A stretch of DNA of 64,000 nt. Origin: Arthrobacter sp. B1805. GTDB lineage: Bacteria > Actinomycetota > Actinomycetes > Actinomycetales > Micrococcaceae. The notes beneath the pieces are model-generated. The model saw nothing but the letters and a program-made list of their open reading frames with translations. It was not told where the DNA came from and searched no databases. The translations under genes and the position numbers were made by a program. Positions 38,840 to 46,805 of the stretch are shown in pieces; positions within the stretch are counted from its first letter, which is position 1, and every line of letters starts with the position of its first letter. The stretch lies in the NCBI RefSeq assembly GCF_002929745.1, contig NZ_PJIQ01000005.1, positions 124,001 through 188,000 of the forward strand, written 5' to 3'.

Positions 38840-41800
38840 TCACACTGCAACCCGGGCTGGTGACGCAGTTGTCGCGCCGAGCACCACGACGTCGTCGCAG
38901 GTGGCTGCTTCGTCCGGATCATGGGTGACCAGCAGCACTGCAGTATCGGGGAGCCCCTGCCGCAGGTCCGCCAGCAGCGAGCGGGCGCCGTCAGTATCGA
39001 GGTGGGCGGTGGGCTCGTCGAGCAGGAGGACCCTGGTCCGGGTGAGCAGAGCGCGCGCCACAGCCAGCCGCTGGCGCTGGCCGCCGGACAACCGCGATCC
39101 GCCCGGGCCGACAGGAGCGTCGAGACCCTGCTCCAGACCGGCCACCATATCCGTCAGCCCGACCGCTCGGATCGTGGCCGCCAACTCTTCCTCGGTGGCG
39201 GGATCATCGGGCAGGCGAGCCAGCTGCAGGTTCGACCGCACGCTGGACGAGAAAAGATGGCTCTCCTGGGGACACCAGGCGATGCGCGGACGGTTTCCGT
39301 CGCTCGGCGCTCCATCCAGGAGCAGCCGGCCCTCCTCGAGGGGCAGGAACCCCAGCAGCGCCCCGATCAGCGTCGACTTCCCACTTCCCGAAGGACCGGT
39401 GAGACCAGTCCAGCGACCGGGCACCAGTTCGAGATCGACGCCGGTCACTACCGGGTGCCCTGCCTCGTAGCCCACATGCGCGCCCTCGAGGGCGATCGTC
39501 CGTACCGGGACCTGTCGCCCCACGGCGCCGTCGGGCTCCTCCTGCCACTCATCCGATGAGCCGAGGCGCGGCAGGATCCGGCGGGTGACGGCTGACAGCG
39601 GACCCCAGTGCTGCACCGCTGACGTGCCGGCGACGAAGGGTTCGATCAGCGCGAGCTGCATGAGCACGAGTACCGCTGTCAGATCGGCGGGCAGACCCGT
39701 TGCAGTCACCAGGATGCCGAGGGCTGTGGTGCAGCAGGCCGCCACGATGACAGCGGTGGAGGCGCCGGCTGCGGCGGCGGATCGCCGGGCGGCGGTCGAC
39801 GCCTCCCCGTCGAGTTGCGTGGTCGACCGGAGCGCAGCGCGGTGTGCGTTGTTCACGCGCAGATCCGGTGCTGCGCGCAGCAGAGCGGTCACGCGCTCGA
39901 GCGCATCCGCCCGGACCCGTACCGCGGCGGCACCGGCGGACCGCTCGCGCACCACCGCGATTGTCGGCGCGACGACGAGTGCGACCGCGACCGGAAGTGC
40001 CTGCCAGCCGAGGGATGCCGGGTGCAGTACGGCCGTGGTGACGATCGCGGCAAGCGCCGTCAGCACCGACGTGACGAAGGGCAGCAGGGCCCGGGAGGAC
40101 AGGTCCCGCAACTCGTCGATGTCTCCGACCAGCCGTTCGATGCCGCCCGATCCGTGCGCGATGGTGCGCCACGACTGTCCCGCTCGGAGGAGGCCGGTCC
40201 ACAACCGCAACCGGGTGTCGTCGGCGCGGCAGAACACCGCCCGGTGCAGCCAGAGGCGTTCCTCGTAGCGCAGGAGGGAACGCCCGATCCCGAAGAACCG
40301 GACGCCGACGATGGCGGTGAGGAGGTAGAGGATCGGCGGTTGCTCGGCGGCGCGCACGATCAGCCAGCCGCTCAGTGCCGTCAGTGCAACGGCGAAGACC
40401 GACGCTCCGAACTCCAGGCCTGCTGCGGCAAGGAATCGCCTGTCCCAGGGACGCACGAGGGCCAGGACGCCACGCGCTGAATCGACCACCGTCCGCGAAG
40501 GAACAGCGACTGTCATCGCGTCTGGAGCATCCGGCCCGGCTGCGCCCGACGCGCCGGTCGAACGGGCGGCGCCCGGATCGAGTCCCGGATCGACACGGAC
40601 CCGATCGGCACCCGGATCGGCGCCTGACGCGTCGGCCGGACGGGCCGCACCCGGATCGGCACCGCCCGCGGTTGCGTCGGCCGTCGCGACGTCGGCCGTC
40701 GTGAGGCTCGCGGTTGCAAGGGTGGCCGTCGCAGGCGTACGCGGAGGGGAAGCAGGTGAACCGGTCCCGCTCGCTACGGGGCCCAAAGCCCGCCGGGCGG
40801 GAGCCGATCCGAGCCACACCTCGCGGGACGCGATGCCGGCAGTGTCGTCGTCGTGAGCGATCAGGAGGACTGTCAGACCGGGTCGACGTGCCTCGATCGC
40901 CTTACGGATGGCGCGCGAAGCATCCGCGTCGACGTGTGCGGTCGGCTCGTCGAGCAACAGCAACCGGACCGAGGTGTCCTGGGCCCTCAGTAGCGCGCGG
41001 GCGACGGCGACCCGCCGCAGCTCGCCCGGGCTCAGCTCCGCACCCCTGCGCTCCGCGAGTCCCGCTGCGCCCGTGGACGCAAGCTGGTCCTCGATGGCGG
41101 GGGCATCCTCGGCCAGACCCGCGTACAGGGCGAGCTCGGCACGCACCGTGCCGAGCAGGAGCTCCGGGTGCTGCGGCACCCAGGCGACGCTGCCGTCATC
41201 GCGCCCTTCGATGCGCCCCTCCAGACGGAGCCCGGCGGGGACGGCCGCTCCCCCTGCCATGGCTCGCATGAGGGTGGATTTGCCGGAACCGCTCGCACCG
41301 CGAAGAGCCGTCACGGTTCCTGGCTTCAGGACGAACGAGATGTCGTCGACCACCGGTTCGAGGACGCCGTCGTACCGTGCGGTGAGTCCCTGGACCCTGA
41401 TGCTGCCCGGGACGAGACCCTCGCCCGAGCCGTCATGGGACGAACCGCCGGCGGGGGTGGTGTCCGGTACTGCGGGAGCGTCGATGACTGCGCGGACACT
41501 GGCACCCGCCTCCTCGCCGTCCTCGCTGGCGTGGTGCGCCGCACCGACGTCGCGCAGGGGGCCGTAACATTCCGGCGCGAGGATCAGCGCGATCAGTGCT
41601 GTCTCCAGGTCGAGGTCCCCGTGGATGAGGCGAACCCCGGCGAACACCGCGACGACGGCGACCGAGATGGTGCTGATGAGTTCGAGCGCGAGCGAGGACA
41701 GGAAGACAGTGCGCAGCGTCGTCATGGTGCGCGAGGTGTAGGCGCCGGCGATGTCGCGCAGGGCACGGGTCTGTTCCGCCGCACGGCCCAGCCCGACGAG

Positions 41801-42523
41801 GACGGGCAGTCCCCTCGCCAGTTCGAGCAGGTGGTCGGAGAGGCGTGCCAGCGCGGCCGCCGCCTGCTGCGTGCGTTCCTGCGTGTGGAGCCCGATCAGC
41901 ACCATGAAGACCGGCACGAGTGGCACGGTCAGGACGATGATGAGGGCGCTGATCCAGTCGGCTGCGAGGATCCGCGCACCGATCAGCAGCGGAACCACGG
42001 CGCAGGTGATCAGGGCGGGGAGGTACTGCGTGTAGTACTTGTCGATTCCGTCCAGCCCGCGGGTCAGCAGCACGGCGAGTGATCCCTGGCCACTGCCCGG
42101 GACCGCCGCACGGGTGGTGCCGCCGTCGTCGAGGACACGCAGCAGGGCGGCCTCCCGCATCCGCTCCTTCACGCCGAGAGCGAGGCGCGCTGCGGTCGCA
42201 TCCTGCCCCCAGGCGGCAACGGTGCGCAGTGCGGCGCCGAGAATTCCCTGCACCAGGACGGCCCGGACGTCCAGCGGCCCCGACGCGGCCGACGCGATGC
42301 CGAGCGCGAGGGCCTGCGCCATCAGCACCAGCCCGGCAGCTCGGGCTGCGGCGAGGCCGCCCAGAAGGTAGACCGCTGCCGCCGATCCCGCTGCTCCCGC
42401 CGGTCCGCCCGATGTCAGCACTGCCATCGGGGAGACCGGGCGGGCCCGCGGCCTGGTACTGCCTGCCGGGGTGATCGCTGGGTCCTGGTGCTGGGACATG
42501 GCCGTCCTGATCGCTTCGCTCAC
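38840..42523 (-). CDS. cydDC: CydDC fused ABC transporter for cytochrome bd assembly
   Basis: About 1227 residues: two ABC half-transporters in one chain. The CydD-like half has six helices and an ATPase (Walker A GASGSGKST near 412, signature LSPGELRRV, Walker B LLLLDEP). The CydC-like half has six helices and an ATPase (Walker A GPSGSGKST near 1046, LSGGQRQRLAVARAL, LLLDEP, switch His in LLVTHDPDE). Between them lies a ~90-residue Ala/Thr/Asp/Gly linker with DPGAARPADASG-like repeats. In E. coli the CydDC heterodimer affects the reduced-thiol/heme state needed for bd oxidase. The GTG start overlaps the cydB stop as GTGA. Fused CydDC is known in actinobacteria. Confidence 0.93.
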   Translation of the reverse strand: MSEAIRTAMSQHQDPAITPAGSTRPRARPVSPMAVLTSGGPAGAAGSAAAVYLLGGLAAARAAGLVLMAQALALGIASAASGPLDVRAVLVQGILGAALRTVAAWGQDATAARLALGVKERMREAALLRVLDDGGTTRAAVPGSGQGSLAVLLTRGLDGIDKYYTQYLPALITCAVVPLLIGARILAADWISALIIVLTVPLVPVFMVLIGLHTQERTQQAAAALARLSDHLLELARGLPVLVGLGRAAEQTRALRDIAGAYTSRTMTTLRTVFLSSLALELISTISVAVVAVFAGVRLIHGDLDLETALIALILAPECYGPLRDVGAAHHASEDGEEAGASVRAVIDAPAVPDTTPAGGSSHDGSGEGLVPGSIRVQGLTARYDGVLEPVVDDISFVLKPGTVTALRGASGSGKSTLMRAMAGGAAVPAGLRLEGRIEGRDDGSVAWVPQHPELLLGTVRAELALYAGLAEDAPAIEDQLASTGAAGLAERRGAELSPGELRRVAVARALLRAQDTSVRLLLLDEPTAHVDADASRAIRKAIEARRPGLTVLLIAHDDDTAGIASREVWLGSAPARRALGPVASGTGSPASPPRTPATATLATASLTTADVATADATAGGADPGAARPADASGADPGADRVRVDPGLDPGAARSTGASGAAGPDAPDAMTVAVPSRTVVDSARGVLALVRPWDRRFLAAAGLEFGASVFAVALTALSGWLIVRAAEQPPILYLLTAIVGVRFFGIGRSLLRYEERLWLHRAVFCRADDTRLRLWTGLLRAGQSWRTIAHGSGGIERLVGDIDELRDLSSRALLPFVTSVLTALAAIVTTAVLHPASLGWQALPVAVALVVAPTIAVVRERSAGAAAVRVRADALERVTALLRAAPDLRVNNAHRAALRSTTQLDGEASTAARRSAAAAGASTAVIVAACCTTALGILVTATGLPADLTAVLVLMQLALIEPFVAGTSAVQHWGPLSAVTRRILPRLGSSDEWQEEPDGAVGRQVPVRTIALEGAHVGYEAGHPVVTGVDLELVPGRWTGLTGPSGSGKSTLIGALLGFLPLEEGRLLLDGAPSDGNRPRIAWCPQESHLFSSSVRSNLQLARLPDDPATEEELAATIRAVGLTDMVAGLEQGLDAPVGPGGSRLSGGQRQRLAVARALLTRTRVLLLDEPTAHLDTDGARSLLADLRQGLPDTAVLLVTHDPDEAATCDDVVVLGATTASPARVAV

Positions 42524-43542
42524 AGCGCGGTGATGGCATGTGCTGCCGGAATACTCGCTTCCGAGACGCGCCGCCGGAAGACCCAGTATGTCCACGCCTG
42601 ATACGCCAGGACAAGCGGCAATCCGAAGCAGGCGACGACGCTCATGAGGCCGAGCGTGTACGGCGAGGAGGCTGCGTTCTGCGTCGTCAGGTCGAAGGCG
42701 TCGTCGAGCGTCGAGGGAAGGACGACCGGGAAGACCGCGCCGAAGATCGATCCGACCAGCGCAAGCATTCCGACGCCGAGCGCCGCGAAGGCACGCCCGT
42801 CCCGTCCCGCGGTGGAGGATCGGTGAGCGGCGACGAACGCCACCACGGCGAGGACGACGACGAGCCAGGTGACCACCGATCCCGTGTCGGCCTGGACCAG
42901 AAGCGCCCAGCCGACGAACGGGACCATCGCCAGCGGAAGCAAGCGTCGGAACAGGCGGTCCGCCTGACCGCGCACACCCCCTTCGGTCTTCAGTGCAAGG
43001 AATGCAGCGGCGTGCACGAGGCAGAACAGCACGACGGCGGCCGCCCCGAGGAACGCCGGAGCGGTGGCCCAGGCGAAAGCGCCACCTACGCGATTGCCGT
43101 CGGCGTCGAGCGGAAGTCCCGTCGTCGTCAGCGCGAGGGCGGCGCCGATGCCTGCTGCGGCCGTGAAGGATCCGATCGCGATAGCCCAGTCCCAACGATT
43201 GCGCCACGCGTCACTGTCCCGCTTGCCGCGCCACTCGAAGGCCACGGCGCGGAAGATCAGGCCGAGCAGCACGACGAGGAACGGAAGGTAGAGCGCGGAG
43301 AGGAGTGAGGCGTACCAGTGGGGGAACGCTGCGAACGTCGCACCGACCGCTGTCACGAGCCACACCTCGTTGCCGTCCCAGACGGGGCCGACGGTATTCA
43401 GGAGCACGCGCCGCTGCGTGTCGTTGCGAGCCATGAGCTTCATGAGCATCCCCACCCCGAGATCGAACCCCTCGAGGAAGAGGTATCCGGCCCACAGAAC
43501 GGCGATCAGTACGAACCAGAGGGTGGGCAGTGCCTCGGTCAT
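42520..43542 (-). CDS. cydB: Cytochrome bd ubiquinol/menaquinol oxidase subunit II
   Basis: 340 residues, about nine membrane helices. It begins MTEALPTLWFVLIAVLWAGYLFLEGFDLGVGML, the CydB hallmark, with WDGNEVWLVTAVGATFAAFP following. It partners CydA in the high-affinity oxidase that reduces oxygen without pumping protons and resists low oxygen, nitric oxide and sulfide. It is 93 bases downstream of cydA and overlaps cydDC by four bases, so the three are one unit. Confidence 0.97.
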   Translation of the reverse strand: MTEALPTLWFVLIAVLWAGYLFLEGFDLGVGMLMKLMARNDTQRRVLLNTVGPVWDGNEVWLVTAVGATFAAFPHWYASLLSALYLPFLVVLLGLIFRAVAFEWRGKRDSDAWRNRWDWAIAIGSFTAAAGIGAALALTTTGLPLDADGNRVGGAFAWATAPAFLGAAAVVLFCLVHAAAFLALKTEGGVRGQADRLFRRLLPLAMVPFVGWALLVQADTGSVVTWLVVVLAVVAFVAAHRSSTAGRDGRAFAALGVGMLALVGSIFGAVFPVVLPSTLDDAFDLTTQNAASSPYTLGLMSVVACFGLPLVLAYQAWTYWVFRRRVSEASIPAAHAITAL

Positions 43543-43635: not shown

Positions 43636-45210
43636 TCAGTACGCAAAGGCGAGGACATCGCCGTCGTCCTTCCTGTCGGGCTGCGGGCGGGACGCCTCGT
43701 CCTGATGTGCCAGCTCCGGCATGGCGGAGGCCGTACCGCCGCGGACGTAGGTGAAGAGGAGCTTTACCTCGACGACGAGGAGGACGGCGTACACGGATGT
43801 CAGCACGATGAGGGAGGCGACCAGCTCGGCGAGGGACACTCCGGGCGAGACGGCTGCCGCGGTGAACATGAAGACGCTGTCGATGCCGGAGGGATCCGGG
43901 TTGGGTGCCACGACGAACGGCTGCCGTCCCATCTCGGTGAAGATCCAGCCTGCCGAGTTGGCGCCGAACGGGGCGAGGATGCCGAACACCGCGAGCCGCA
44001 TGAGCCAGCGTGACTCCGGGACCGTTCCCCTGCGCAGGACCCACAGGGCGACTGCTGCCGCGCCCGCGGCGATCGCGCCGAAGCCGATCATGATGCGGAA
44101 CCCCCAGTAGGTCACTTCCATCACCGGCAGGTAGTCGATCTCGGTCCCGGCGCGCTCGCCGTACATGGGGTCGTCCGGAAGCGTCGTGCCGTACTTTTCC
44201 TGGTACTCCGGGAGGAGGGTGTTCACACCCTTCACCTCGGTGGTGAAGTCTCCGTTGGCGAGGAAGGACAGCACCCCGGGTACCTCGATGACCGCTGTGA
44301 TGTCGTCGCAGCTCTGCGCGCCCAGGTTGCCGACGGAGAGGATCGAGAAACCCGTCCCGTCGTGGCAGGCAGCCTCGGCGGCAGCCATCTTCATGGGCTG
44401 CTGGTCGAACATGAGCTTGCCCTGGAGATCGCCCGTGATGCCGGTTCCTGCGAAGGCGATCATGGCGACGACGGCGCCGGCGCGAGCGGACCGGAGCCAG
44501 ACCTTATGGTCCGTCGTGTCGCGGGACCCACTTCCGTTCCCCACGACGACGGCTCCGTCCGGACCGACGGTGTCGAGTCCGTCGTGGCGCCGCTTCCACA
44601 GGTGGTACCAACTGATGCCGAGGAGGAACGCTCCCGCGACGGCCAGGGCGCCGAAGACAGTGTGCGGAAACGCCACCAGTGCGGTGTTGTTGGTGAACAC
44701 CGCCCAGGCGTCCACCATCACGGGCCGTCCGTCGACCATCTCGACGCCCACGGGATGCTGCATCCAGGAGTTGGCCACCAGGATGAAATAGGCGGAGAAC
44801 ACGGAGGCCAGGACGGCTGCCCACAGGGACAGCAGGTGGATGACGCGTGGTAGCCGCCCCCACCCGAAAATCCAGAGGCCGAGGAAGGTGGATTCGACGA
44901 AGAAGGCGAGGAGTGCCTCCATCGCCAGGGGAGCTCCGAAGACATCGCCGACGAAGCGGCTGTACTCGCTCCATGCCATCCCGAACTGGAACTCCTGCAC
45001 GAGCCCGGTAGCCACGCCCATGATGAAGTTGATGAGGAAGAGCTTGCCCCAGAACTTGGTCATGCGGAGGTAGTGGTCCTTGCCGGTGCGGTGCCACATG
45101 GTCTGCATCACGGCGACCAGGAGCCCCAGCCCGATGGTCAGGGGAACCATCAGGAAGTGGTAGACAGTGGTGATTCCGAATTGCCACCTGGCAATTTCCA
45201 AGGCTTCCAT
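43636..45210 (-). CDS. cydA: Cytochrome bd oxidase subunit I
   Basis: 524 residues. Nine helices with heme b595 ligand His18 in TTVYHFLMVPLTIGLG, the quinol (Q-loop) region, and GRQPF in EMGRQPFVVAP in place of the usual GRQPW. The C-terminal ~30 residues are polar. ATG preceded by AGAGG at seven bases. First gene of cydA-cydB-cydDC. The leader and promoter are embedded in the inverted repeats shared with the divergent BlaI-type repressor gene. Confidence 0.97.
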   Translation of the reverse strand: MEALEIARWQFGITTVYHFLMVPLTIGLGLLVAVMQTMWHRTGKDHYLRMTKFWGKLFLINFIMGVATGLVQEFQFGMAWSEYSRFVGDVFGAPLAMEALLAFFVESTFLGLWIFGWGRLPRVIHLLSLWAAVLASVFSAYFILVANSWMQHPVGVEMVDGRPVMVDAWAVFTNNTALVAFPHTVFGALAVAGAFLLGISWYHLWKRRHDGLDTVGPDGAVVVGNGSGSRDTTDHKVWLRSARAGAVVAMIAFAGTGITGDLQGKLMFDQQPMKMAAAEAACHDGTGFSILSVGNLGAQSCDDITAVIEVPGVLSFLANGDFTTEVKGVNTLLPEYQEKYGTTLPDDPMYGERAGTEIDYLPVMEVTYWGFRIMIGFGAIAAGAAAVALWVLRRGTVPESRWLMRLAVFGILAPFGANSAGWIFTEMGRQPFVVAPNPDPSGIDSVFMFTAAAVSPGVSLAELVASLIVLTSVYAVLLVVEVKLLFTYVRGGTASAMPELAHQDEASRPQPDRKDDGDVLAFAY

Positions 45211-45250
45211 CGGGCCCTCTCAGCAGCGCCTGGCGTCGGCGTCGACAATA

Positions 45251-45269
45251 CTTCTACAGCTTGTAGAAG
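45251..45269. promoter_or_regulatory. Predicted BlaI-type operator 1
   Basis: CTTCTACA-GCT-TGTAGAAG: a perfect 8-bp dyad with core CTAC-N5-GTAG. It lies in the predicted cydA 5' leader, just past the likely transcription start, where a bound repressor would block elongation. Confidence 0.75.
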
Positions 45270-45271
45270 AA

Positions 45272-45293
45272 GTTCTACTACATATCGTAGAAC
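45272..45293. promoter_or_regulatory. Predicted BlaI-type operator 2
   Basis: GTTCTAC-N8-GTAGAAC, also readable in the shared register TACTAC-ATATC-GTAGAA. It covers the predicted cydA -10 (minus-strand TACGAT, 45289-45284). Its centre is about 24 bases from operator 1. Confidence 0.75.
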
Positions 45294-45305
45294 AAATTCC
45301 GCCTC

Positions 45306-45326
45306 ATTTCTACGCAGAGTAGAAAT
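45306..45326. promoter_or_regulatory. Predicted BlaI-type operator 3
   Basis: ATTTCTAC-GCAGA-GTAGAAAT: a perfect 8-bp dyad, core CTAC-N5-GTAG. Both arms supply a TAGAAA -35-like hexamer, minus strand 45312-45307 toward cydA (17 bases to TACGAT) and plus strand 45320-45325 toward the repressor gene (17 bases to TACGTT at 45343-45348). One site could thus silence both promoters. Confidence 0.75.
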
Positions 45327-45433
45327 GTTGGCGACGACGCTGTACGTTAGATGCATCACGCATTATCGCTCCCTGTGGGGAGCGGGTTCGGATCCTTCGC
45401 AGGCCCGGATCCAGTCTCGATTGAAGGAAGAAC

Positions 45434-45802
45434 ATGGCAACGCTCGGAGACCTCGAACGCACAGTGATGGAACTGCTGTGGGCAACGCCTGAAGCGATGA
45501 CCGCCAACGAACTGCGGGACGCGATCGCAGAAGCCCCATCGGGAGAAGCGGGGCGCGAACTCGCCGTGACAACGGTGCTCACCGTGTTGTCACGACTGGA
45601 GAAGAAGGGCCTTGTGGAGCGGGAGCGCGACAGTCGCCCCCACCGGTACAAGTCCGTGACGAGCCGCGAGGACCACACTGCGGAGCTCATGCACGAAGTC
45701 CTCGTGACGGCGCCGGACCGTGAAGCCGTCCTCGCCCGTTTCATCGGCAGCGTCTCGGAGGCGGAGGCCGAGACACTCCGCAAGCTGCTCGGCAGCAGCT
45801 GA
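45434..45802 (+). CDS. BlaI/MecI/CopY-family transcriptional repressor
   Basis: 122 residues, full length. The winged helix-turn-helix occupies ~1-80 (LGDLERTVMELLWATPEAMTANELRDAI, TVLTVLSRLEKKGLVERERD, PHRYKSVTSREDH). The dimerisation helices lie at the C-terminus (LARFIGSVSEAEAETLRKLL). Family members repress by binding TAC/GTA-type dyads and are inactivated by proteolysis (BlaI/MecI) or metal (CopY). No CopY cysteine motif is seen, so the proteolysis route fits. The next gene, seven bases on, encodes a membrane metallopeptidase. AAGGAAG precedes the ATG. Three matching dyads lie directly upstream. Confidence 0.95.
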   Translation: MATLGDLERTVMELLWATPEAMTANELRDAIAEAPSGEAGRELAVTTVLTVLSRLEKKGLVERERDSRPHRYKSVTSREDHTAELMHEVLVTAPDREAVLARFIGSVSEAEAETLRKLLGSS

Positions 45803-45809
45803 CCCCACC

Positions 45810-46805
45810 GTGTTCTGGGCCTCGTACCTGCTCGCGGCGCTCGCGATCATCCTCGCCTGGCCCGCCCCTATCGCGCTCTCCCGCGCATCGTGGCCCGCAC
45901 GAGCTCCCTTCACCGCCATGGTGCTGTGGCAGTCCATAGCTCTCGCGGGCGGGCTCTCCATGATCGGGGCGATGCTCGTCTGGGGTCTGGAACCACTCGG
46001 TGACAACCTCATCTCGGCCTCGGCGGGCTTCATCAGGATCCTGCTCGACGACGGCTCCGCCCAGACGCTGGGTGTCGTCCACGTCTTCGCCATCAGCGCA
46101 GCAACCCTGCTGTTCGGACACCTCGTCTTCACCCTGGCGCTGACCTTCGTCCGCATCAGGCGGCAGAGACGGCGGCACCGGGACATGCTCAGCCTGCTCA
46201 GCTCCCCGGCGGCGAACCAGCCGGCGACGCTCGTGATCAACCATCCCGCACCTGTTGCGTACTGCCTGCCCGGGGGCGCCCGGTCCGTGACCGTCATGTC
46301 GGACGGGCTCATGGACCTCCTGACGCAGGCGGAACTCGAGGCCGTCCTGACGCATGAGAACGCCCACCTGCACCAGCGACACCACCTGTTGCTCTGGGCC
46401 TTCGCTGCGTGGCGGTCGGCGCTCCCGTGGCTGCCCACCTCGCAGCTGGCGCAGCATGCCGTGAGCGAACTGATCGAGATGCTCGCCGACGACGAGGCCC
46501 TACGGCACGTGGACGAGACGACCCTCGTGCGGGCCATCGCCATCGTCGGATCCGGTGCGCTTCCGTCCTCCCGCGACGCGCTCGACGACCCCCTCGCCGA
46601 CGCGGGCAGGAGAGCGCCCGAACCCGCGATCGCCGATGTGAGTGGTGGCGCGGCCGACGTACAGTCGATCGCCCACCGTGTCCGCCGGCTCCTCACTCCC
46701 CTGCCGCCGCTCAGCCGCCTGCAGCAGGGGCTCGCCCTGTCGTCCGCCGGGATACTTCTGGTCGTGCCGCCGGTCCTGCTGGTCGCTCCCGAACTGCTCG
46801 GCTGA
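45810..46805 (+). CDS. M56-family membrane metallopeptidase (BlaR1-like, no sensor domain)
   Basis: 331 residues from a GTG seven bases after the repressor stop. Three N-terminal helices are followed by a cytoplasmic domain with the zinc motif HENAH (182-186) in VLTHENAHLHQRHHLL, a distal Glu region ELIEMLADDEALR, and a final C-terminal helix (GLALSSAGILLVVPPVLLV). BlaR1/MecR1 have this protease plus an extracellular penicillin-binding sensor. That sensor is missing here, so any signal must be sensed within the membrane or by a partner. Presumed to trigger cleavage of the BlaI-type repressor. Confidence 0.93.
   Translation: MFWASYLLAALAIILAWPAPIALSRASWPARAPFTAMVLWQSIALAGGLSMIGAMLVWGLEPLGDNLISASAGFIRILLDDGSAQTLGVVHVFAISAATLLFGHLVFTLALTFVRIRRQRRRHRDMLSLLSSPAANQPATLVINHPAPVAYCLPGGARSVTVMSDGLMDLLTQAELEAVLTHENAHLHQRHHLLLWAFAAWRSALPWLPTSQLAQHAVSELIEMLADDEALRHVDETTLVRAIAIVGSGALPSSRDALDDPLADAGRRAPEPAIADVSGGAADVQSIAHRVRRLLTPLPPLSRLQQGLALSSAGILLVVPPVLLVAPELLG

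Follow-up and report, generated by a model that had tools for sequence, protein, structure and literature searches.

A BlaI-type repressor and a sensorless BlaR1-like protease beside the cytochrome bd genes of Arthrobacter sp. B1805 as a candidate regulator of respiratory capacity

What does a repressor of the BlaI family control when its gene lies back to back with the genes of a respiratory oxidase, and what would release it? The locus that raises this question lies in a stretch of 64,000 nucleotides from Arthrobacter sp. B1805 (contig NZ_PJIQ01000005.1, positions 124,001 to 188,000; hereafter the window), where the cytochrome bd genes cydA, cydB and cydDC are divergent from a blaI gene followed by a gene for an M56-like membrane metalloprotease. 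We consider it probable that the BlaI-M56 pair governs a respiratory regulon, with the protease acting as the inducer of BlaI. The gene order had already been described in a first-pass annotation of the window, and is borne out by profile matches in Pfam and NCBIfam as follows:

38840..42529, minus strand: cydDC, a single frame holding both CydD and CydC, the ATP-binding cassette (ABC) exporter for bd assembly (TIGR02857 at residues 52-567 and TIGR02868 at 688-1205, both above cut-off; the start codon is uncertain)
42520..43542, minus strand: cydB (PF02322, 330 bits)
43636..45210, minus strand: cydA (PF01654, 499 bits)
45434..45802, plus strand: blaI-family repressor gene, 122 amino acids (PF03965 Penicillinase_R, 78.3 bits against a cut-off of 22.6)
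45810..46805, plus strand: gene for a sensorless BlaR1-like (M56-type) membrane metalloprotease, 331 amino acids, with a GTG start at 45810 (motif spacing and a weak fold match)
46353..46367, plus strand: codons of the zinc/catalytic motif H182-E-N-A-H186 of the protease (sequence and alignment)

The window BlaI is the sole PF03965 match of its own genome at E <= 0.001. The protease gene begins 7 bases 3' of blaI, and the two are presumably co-transcribed.

Operators between cydA and blaI

The divergent genes cydA and blaI are 223 bp apart, and this gap contains all three copies of the core CTAC-N5-GTAG found in the 64-kb window (45254-45266, 45278-45290 and 45310-45322). Shuffled versions of the window held 0.11 copies on average, and none of 100 shuffles reached three. 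The pattern scan confirms the three repeats of the first-pass annotation, with their centres at 45260, 45284 and 45316; of the perfect 8-bp arms given there to the outer two, those of operator 1 hold (8 bp, with a 3-nt loop), and those of operator 3 were measured at 9 bp (5-nt loop). The operators and the predicted promoter elements are:

45252..45268, no strand: operator 1 (O1), TTCTAC-N5-GTAGAA, centre 50 bp 5' of the cydA start (pattern and arm scan)
45276..45292, no strand: operator 2 (O2), TACTAC-N5-GTAGAA, one mismatch to TTCTAC-N5-GTAGAA (pattern scan)
45308..45324, no strand: operator 3 (O3), TTCTAC-N5-GTAGAA, on the blaI side, centre 118 bp 5' of blaI (pattern and arm scan)
45284..45289, minus strand: predicted cydA -10, TACGAT, within O2 (sequence reading and conservation)
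45307..45312, minus strand: predicted cydA -35, TAGAAA, overlapping O3, 17 nt from the -10 (sequence reading)
45320..45325, plus strand: predicted blaI -35, TAGAAA, in O3, with a partner -10, TACGTT, at 45343-45348 (sequence reading only)

O2 probably contains the cydA -10, with O1 just downstream of it and the O3 of the window overlapping the likely -35. Among 72 loci in which cydA adjoins blaI (the window included), 71 have O1 and O2 with centres 23-25 bp apart, a near-constant distance that suggests two dimers side by side, and O3 is present in 67 of these 71. The spacers vary (47 distinct ones at O1 and 29 at O3), and their third position shows no preference for A at O1 or O3 (only 10/47 and 5/29 distinct spacers, respectively), whereas it is A at O2 in 68 of 71 loci (12 of 14 distinct spacers). 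Since this conserved A completes TANNNT on the cydA strand, O2 is the likely site of the cydA -10, as the earlier annotation had claimed; it is a prediction from conservation and sequence reading, as a generic sigma-70 scan found no promoter. The TAGAAA hexamers that O3 was said to offer in both directions were read on both strands, as predicted -35 elements. A role of the dyads as a terminator, of which one terminator-like match was seen at O2, was dropped because like dyads recur 5' of unrelated genes.

For comparison with close relatives, we used the best 80 of 349 confirmed BlaI relatives, of which the twelve closest are 92-96% identical to the window BlaI and, in eleven cases, labelled Arthrobacter, which places the window near A. 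agilis. The first-pass annotation would have taken a lack of the dyads in related genomes as evidence against its reading, and at least one exact dyad lies upstream of blaI in 80/80 relatives. M56 similarity is likewise found 3' of blaI in 80/80, in four of them over 71-143 amino acids only. The divergent cydA is in place in 71 of the 80 loci, and the gap then holds three full palindromes in 66 and two in 5. One of the loci compared (L025, WNZI01000013.1) comes from a record titled Vibrio cholerae strain 35D; it carries an Arthrobacter-like cyd-blaI-M56 arrangement (BlaI 93%, CydA 94%), and the record is perhaps mislabelled or contaminated.

The remaining nine loci provide a natural rearrangement: cydA is missing from the locus in eight cases and lies 3.8 kb away in the ninth (L097, genome G009), and blaI retains one palindrome in eight of the nine and two in L030. 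These nine genomes and six controls made up a set of 15 chosen Micrococcaceae genomes. In five of them (G003, G005, G006, G008 and G009) a displaced cydA was found, preceded at 35-98 bp by two exact palindromes 23-25 bp apart, and blaI keeps a single palindrome; in G001, G002, G004 and G007 the search found no cydA, and blaI, M56 and the blaI operator are still present. Since the rearranged genomes keep that split, the paired operators appear to go with cydA and the lone operator with blaI, and these loci argue for an action of BlaI in trans.

The palindrome also tracks BlaI beyond the locus. With the reversed pattern as control, exact TTCTAC-N5-GTAGAA was found at 93 sites in the 15 chosen genomes versus 4 control sites, and at 111 sites versus 22 in 149 genomes of the order, the 22 being scattered over 20 genomes. 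The palindrome occurs in 26 of the 149 genomes, all 26 with a BlaI (E <= 1e-10), and in 0/86 genomes without one, which include two BlaI-less genomes of the same family (G072 and G142). Of the 23 genomes with a close BlaI (E < 1e-38, a threshold chosen once the data were known), 22 have the exact palindrome, and the Fisher values for co-occurrence of palindrome and BlaI are 3e-21 and 5e-12. The highest count among the 149, 15 exact palindromes, was seen in a 2.7-Mb genome of the same family (G086).

These comparisons bear on the alternative that some other regulator binds the dyads and BlaI is a bystander. This seems extremely improbable to us, given that the exact palindrome is confined to genomes with BlaI, that a dyad stands upstream of blaI in all 80 relatives, and that related repressors bind TAC/GTA dyads (PMC7253601; here and below, papers are cited for the excerpts that were available). 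The proposal of the first-pass annotation that a BlaI-type repressor acts on cydA through the dyads is therefore supported by conservation, by the operators of displaced cydA genes and by the co-occurrence with BlaI, and the predicted repression of cydA and the action in trans are well supported by comparison between genomes.

Genes preceded by the palindrome

Among the 93 exact sites in the 15 chosen genomes, 76 were read by script, a further ten belong to the blaI side in nine genomes, and seven (in G004, G013, G014 and G015) were left out. Seventy-five of the 76 shortly precede a named or recurring gene and one has no target. The targets, all preceded by the exact palindrome and with names supported by Pfam and PDB searches, are:

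hemQ: site in 12/15 genomes, at -31 to -68
cydA: site in 11/15 genomes
qcrC: site in 10/15 genomes, at -13/-14, once at -38
hmp flavohaemoglobin gene: site in 8/15 genomes
small membrane protein gene, product without a Pfam match: site in 7/15 genomes
group III truncated haemoglobin gene: site in 4/15 genomes, at -16/-17
microbial rhodopsin gene: site in 2/15 genomes
phosphatase gene beside a ResA-like gene, VKOR gene, pyridoxamine-oxidase-like gene and gene for an unknown 199-amino-acid protein: one or two genomes each

In the genome of strain B1805 itself, exact sites are confined to the cydA/blaI gap and qcrC. Among its one-mismatch sites, those preceding hemQ, ctaE and the gene of the small membrane protein find support in relatives; that at ctaE, 128-130 bp before the gene, recurs in nine of the ten relatives with a qcrC site that were read and is absent in G009. 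A further one-mismatch site at a ResA-like gene is backed less directly, by sites before ResA-like genes in G040.

Since the palindrome recurs at qcrC (the bcc-aa3 branch), hemQ, hmp, the truncated haemoglobin gene and rhodopsin, the role of BlaI would be wider than the alternative oxidase, and the BlaI-M56 module appears to regulate respiratory capacity and not cydA alone. The switch for the alternative oxidase described in the first-pass annotation is partly supported, and as a description of the whole system it was too narrow.

The same target set bears on the possibility that the system is a classical beta-lactam response to cell-wall damage with cyd as an accessory target. Homology to the BlaI/MecI family, and the repression of blaC by M. 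tuberculosis BlaI (PMC8265638, PMC12565901, PMC5473688), would fit such a response. We nevertheless regard it as very unlikely, as Pfam finds no sensor domain in the protease, most of the targets that recur have to do with respiration or haem, and no gene for a beta-lactamase or penicillin-binding protein is among the targets named for the 86 of 93 sites covered, one of which lacks a target.

Two of the targets deserve a separate description. The rhodopsin operator occurs in two Arthrobacter genomes, G006 and G007 (L168:2976-3945; L179:2993), and in the latter (Arthrobacter sp. H20, one of the genomes in which the search gave no cydA) the rhodopsin gene has two sites 24 bp apart, one of them mismatched, which is the format seen at cydA. 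The nearest solved relatives of the rhodopsin in a PDB search are a bacteriorhodopsin, Gll0198 and xanthorhodopsin, all of which we take to be proton pumps. The small membrane protein (L170:3091-3423) has relatives in L115, L145, L148, L167, L177 and L186 and, in the B1805 genome, in L130; a MatE transporter gene precedes it in the two loci checked.

The cydA-blaI link across the class

A survey of the kind that the first-pass annotation had proposed, of gene adjacency and motif, was run on 197 genomes of the class, sorted into families with f-numbers (f1, f19, f22 and so on), and found both well beyond the close relatives. Scored from the matches listed, BlaI was available for 102 of 114 genomes and cydA for 130 of 138, both for 96. 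BlaI lies divergent from cydA within 3 kb in 41 of these 96 genomes, namely in f38 (15/15), f45 (8/8), f19 (6/6), f36 (9/13), f1 (2/2) and f47 (1/1), and in none of the few genomes scored in f2, f17, f24, f31, f32, f50 and f53. All 27 cydA-blaI gaps read in f6, f19, f36, f38, f45 and f47 contain CTAC-N5-GTAG or CTAC-N8-GTAG, with M56 similarity 3' of BlaI in 27/27 loci; spacings of N4, N6 and N7 were found in 0/27 gaps and the reversed control once. Seven gaps (L214-L218, L226 and L227, from f38, one f45 and f47) have CTAC-N8-GTAG only, and the others N5 or both. Judged by sequence and conservation, TAC/GTA dyads are present at own and target promoters, with a spacing unlike the TACANNTGTA given for the BlaI/MecI/CopY family (PMC7253601), and the operator spacing shifts between families, being N5 here and N8 in f38.

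Where blaI is not linked to cydA, the dyad can still be found. Seven of the 14 f22 genomes, two of f37 and one of f35 were checked, and in f22 a dyad of the N5 or N8 type precedes cydA in 7/7 genomes and blaI in 0/7. The nearest solved structure to the window BlaI, with a profile from an alignment of 35 relatives and the window protein (A2), is 2g9w (E 1e-23), which we take to be M. tuberculosis BlaI. We regard f22 as mycobacterium-like because the BlaI of one of its genomes matches 2g9w with E 7e-59.

The link between BlaI and cyd therefore looks old in the class. The full arrangement, which had seemed new in the first-pass annotation, is not rare by the count above, and a cyd-linked BlaI-M56 pair or a wider regulon of this kind is not described among the literature matches listed. 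As separate observations, f19 has another exact site before a cydDC-like frame, away from the cydAB/blaI gap (L204:2980, L203:7893), and f15 has sites before a gene for a PepSY_TM membrane protein (L201:3049, L202:3014-3046); in L201, similarity to BlaI and to M56 lies nearby.

The protease, the signal and known systems

If BlaI holds these genes down, the question of what releases it turns on the protease. Frames were recovered from 77 of the 80 relatives (two being broken at contig ends and one not recovered; one of the 77 has only 171 amino acids), and 47 of them were aligned with the window protein (A1). H182, E183, H186, E223 and D227 are invariant in these 48 close sequences. A cross-family comparison of the window protein with 33 relatives shows the same five residues throughout; one fragment (L212) and two f37 proteins, both encoded behind BlaI and without HExxH, were dropped from that count. 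The step from HExxH to ExxxD is 41 residues, and the corresponding BlaR1 motifs, H201EXXH and E242XXXD, are also 41 residues apart (PMC9834060). The 331 amino acids contain no further Pfam domain, in agreement with the first-pass view of a protease without a beta-lactam sensor. An A-Y-C-x-P motif before the active-site helix, with cysteine C152 (codon 46263-46265), is kept in the window protein and the 33 cross-family relatives. Haem ligands in the membrane helices were considered and dropped, as H91 and H104 are invariant in the 48 close sequences and not across families.

Profile searches suggest another identity, in which BlaI represses but the protease is an HtpX/M48-like quality-control enzyme, and BlaI is freed by a ligand of its own or by a metal or redox change, as CopY is by copper. 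Pfam ranks M48 first with 43.6 bits and gives M56 (PF05569) 21.2 bits, below its cut-off of 31; the HtpX models of NCBIfam match as well, all below cut-off, and the best NCBIfam match of BlaI is TIGR02698 CopY, far under its cut-off (30.4 versus 121.95 bits). In contrast, the alignment A2 contains no Cys-X-Cys of the CopY type, M56 similarity follows BlaI in every close relative and every cross-family locus read, the motif spacing is that of BlaR1, and the top three Foldseek matches are BlaR1, although weak (E 0.07 to 1.3; template modelling score by query 0.24-0.27) and obtained with a mediocre AlphaFold model (predicted local distance difference test, 67). Repression with such a separate release is therefore unlikely in our view, and the name M56, given on account of motif spacing and weak fold similarity, likely denotes a BlaR1-like protein, not a certain family member.

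In the mechanism that we favour, BlaI dimers would bind TTCTAC-N5-GTAGAA operators, the dyads of the window among them. At cydA, two or three operators spanning the -35 and -10 elements together with the beginning of the transcript would turn the cytochrome bd operon off, and the blaI-side operator would serve autoregulation of blaI-M56 and a reset of the system. In trans, BlaI would moderate the genes for the bcc-aa3 oxidase, haem synthesis and nitric oxide (NO)-handling globins and, in some relatives, a rhodopsin of the proton-pump type. Since the protease resembles BlaR1, we infer that it would cut BlaI, and it may do so upon a respiratory or membrane disturbance, thereby releasing the regulon; a respiratory signal is proposed because the target set is in keeping with a block of haem-copper respiration, NO or low oxygen. 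It is possible but doubtful that the pair goes further and senses respiration directly, without a receptor domain, so as to set the whole chain (the two terminal oxidases, haem and cytochrome assembly, globins that detoxify NO and a proton pump driven by light), the protease body being the sensor and C152 a candidate redox, NO or zinc-ligand switch.

Several points weigh against a respiratory regulon induced by an M56 protease. The B1805 genome has just three exact palindromes (O1, O3 and qcrC); at up to one mismatch it has 19 sites versus 9 controls, so that about half may be chance, and neither two mismatches (99 versus 141 controls) nor the bare 13-bp core (20 places versus 212 for the reversed pattern) are enriched, what is distinctive being the grouping of three sites and the extended palindrome rather than the core. 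Relatives lend no support to the one-mismatch sites of this genome at ctaB, a CtaG/CopD gene (-10), sucC and an ABC gene, which may be chance. The qcrC sites at 13-14 bp before the start fall into the ctaE-qcrC interval and possibly have no effect on a main promoter, and an exact qcrC site is absent from G008 and G012. Reference proteins for naming the sites were taken from the site neighbours, which leaves recurrence across genomes as the only independent element. To these points are added the selection of close relatives by best match, the unstated completeness of the draft genomes without cydA, the preference for HExxH with which cross-family protease frames were picked, and the profile ranking, mediocre model and weak fold matches described above. 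Lastly, cydA and blaI are not adjacent in f22 (0/14), f35 (0/15) or f37 (0/13) among the matches listed, and no dyad was found upstream of cydA in f37 (0/2).

Among known systems, the closest is BlaI-BlaR of M. tuberculosis (Rv1846c-Rv1845c), which shares with the window pair the nearest BlaI structure, 2g9w, and a BlaR without sensor domain (PMC9834060), a feature reported for all mycobacteria, where the extracellular sensor is missing (2017 eLife, PMC5473688). Its BlaI is reported to bind promoters of cytochrome bd and of ATP synthase genes (PMC5473688, citing Sala 2009). The respiratory precedent in mycobacteria invoked by the first-pass annotation is thus closer than it had stated. A gel shift exists for the Rv1303-atp promoter (PMC12565901), and atp is given as a BlaI target in PMC8265638, PMC5874750 and PMC7924339, the first of which adds sigC; the available text of PMC11561320, PMC8765290 and PMC10581053 has nothing on BlaI and respiration. 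The system differs in that blaI does not adjoin cydA in mycobacterium-like f22, and in that the cited papers, in the parts available, treat the pair mainly as a control of beta-lactam response and atp, whereas the sites found here extend to hemQ, qcrC, hmp, truncated haemoglobin and rhodopsin. The cyd link and the missing sensor are therefore already known from mycobacteria, and the module is conserved and broader than first thought.

BlaI/BlaR1 and MecI/MecR1 of S. aureus likewise combine a repressor with a gluzincin membrane protease in which HExxH and ExxxD are 41 apart (PMC9834060), and use dyads of the TACA/TGTA type, with two operators for BlaI (PMC7253601, PMC9834060). However, the spacing there is TACA-N2-TGTA (TAC-N4-GTA; PMC7253601) and here TAC-N5-GTA, and the Arthrobacter pair has other targets and no beta-lactam sensor domain. 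Operators of the TACANNTGTA type are found in the BlaI/MecI/CopY family (PMC7253601), and CopY/CopR share this operator type and the DNA-binding family, but are released by metal through a C-terminal Cys-X-Cys (PMC7253601) that is not seen in the BlaI alignment here. HrrSA of Corynebacterium glutamicum has overlapping targets (ctaE-qcrCAB, cydAB, ctaB and haem genes; PMC7337898); as a haem-responsive two-component system of unrelated proteins that activates oxidase genes (PMC7337898), it is an analogue only.

Should the BlaI-M56 pair indeed regulate respiration, then monitoring respiration may be the more ancient function of sensorless pairs of this kind, and their signal would be testable in soil bacteria, with the cydA promoter as a ready-made reporter. 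Actinobacterial regulators already known, among them HrrSA, would then be joined by one that acts on both oxidase branches.

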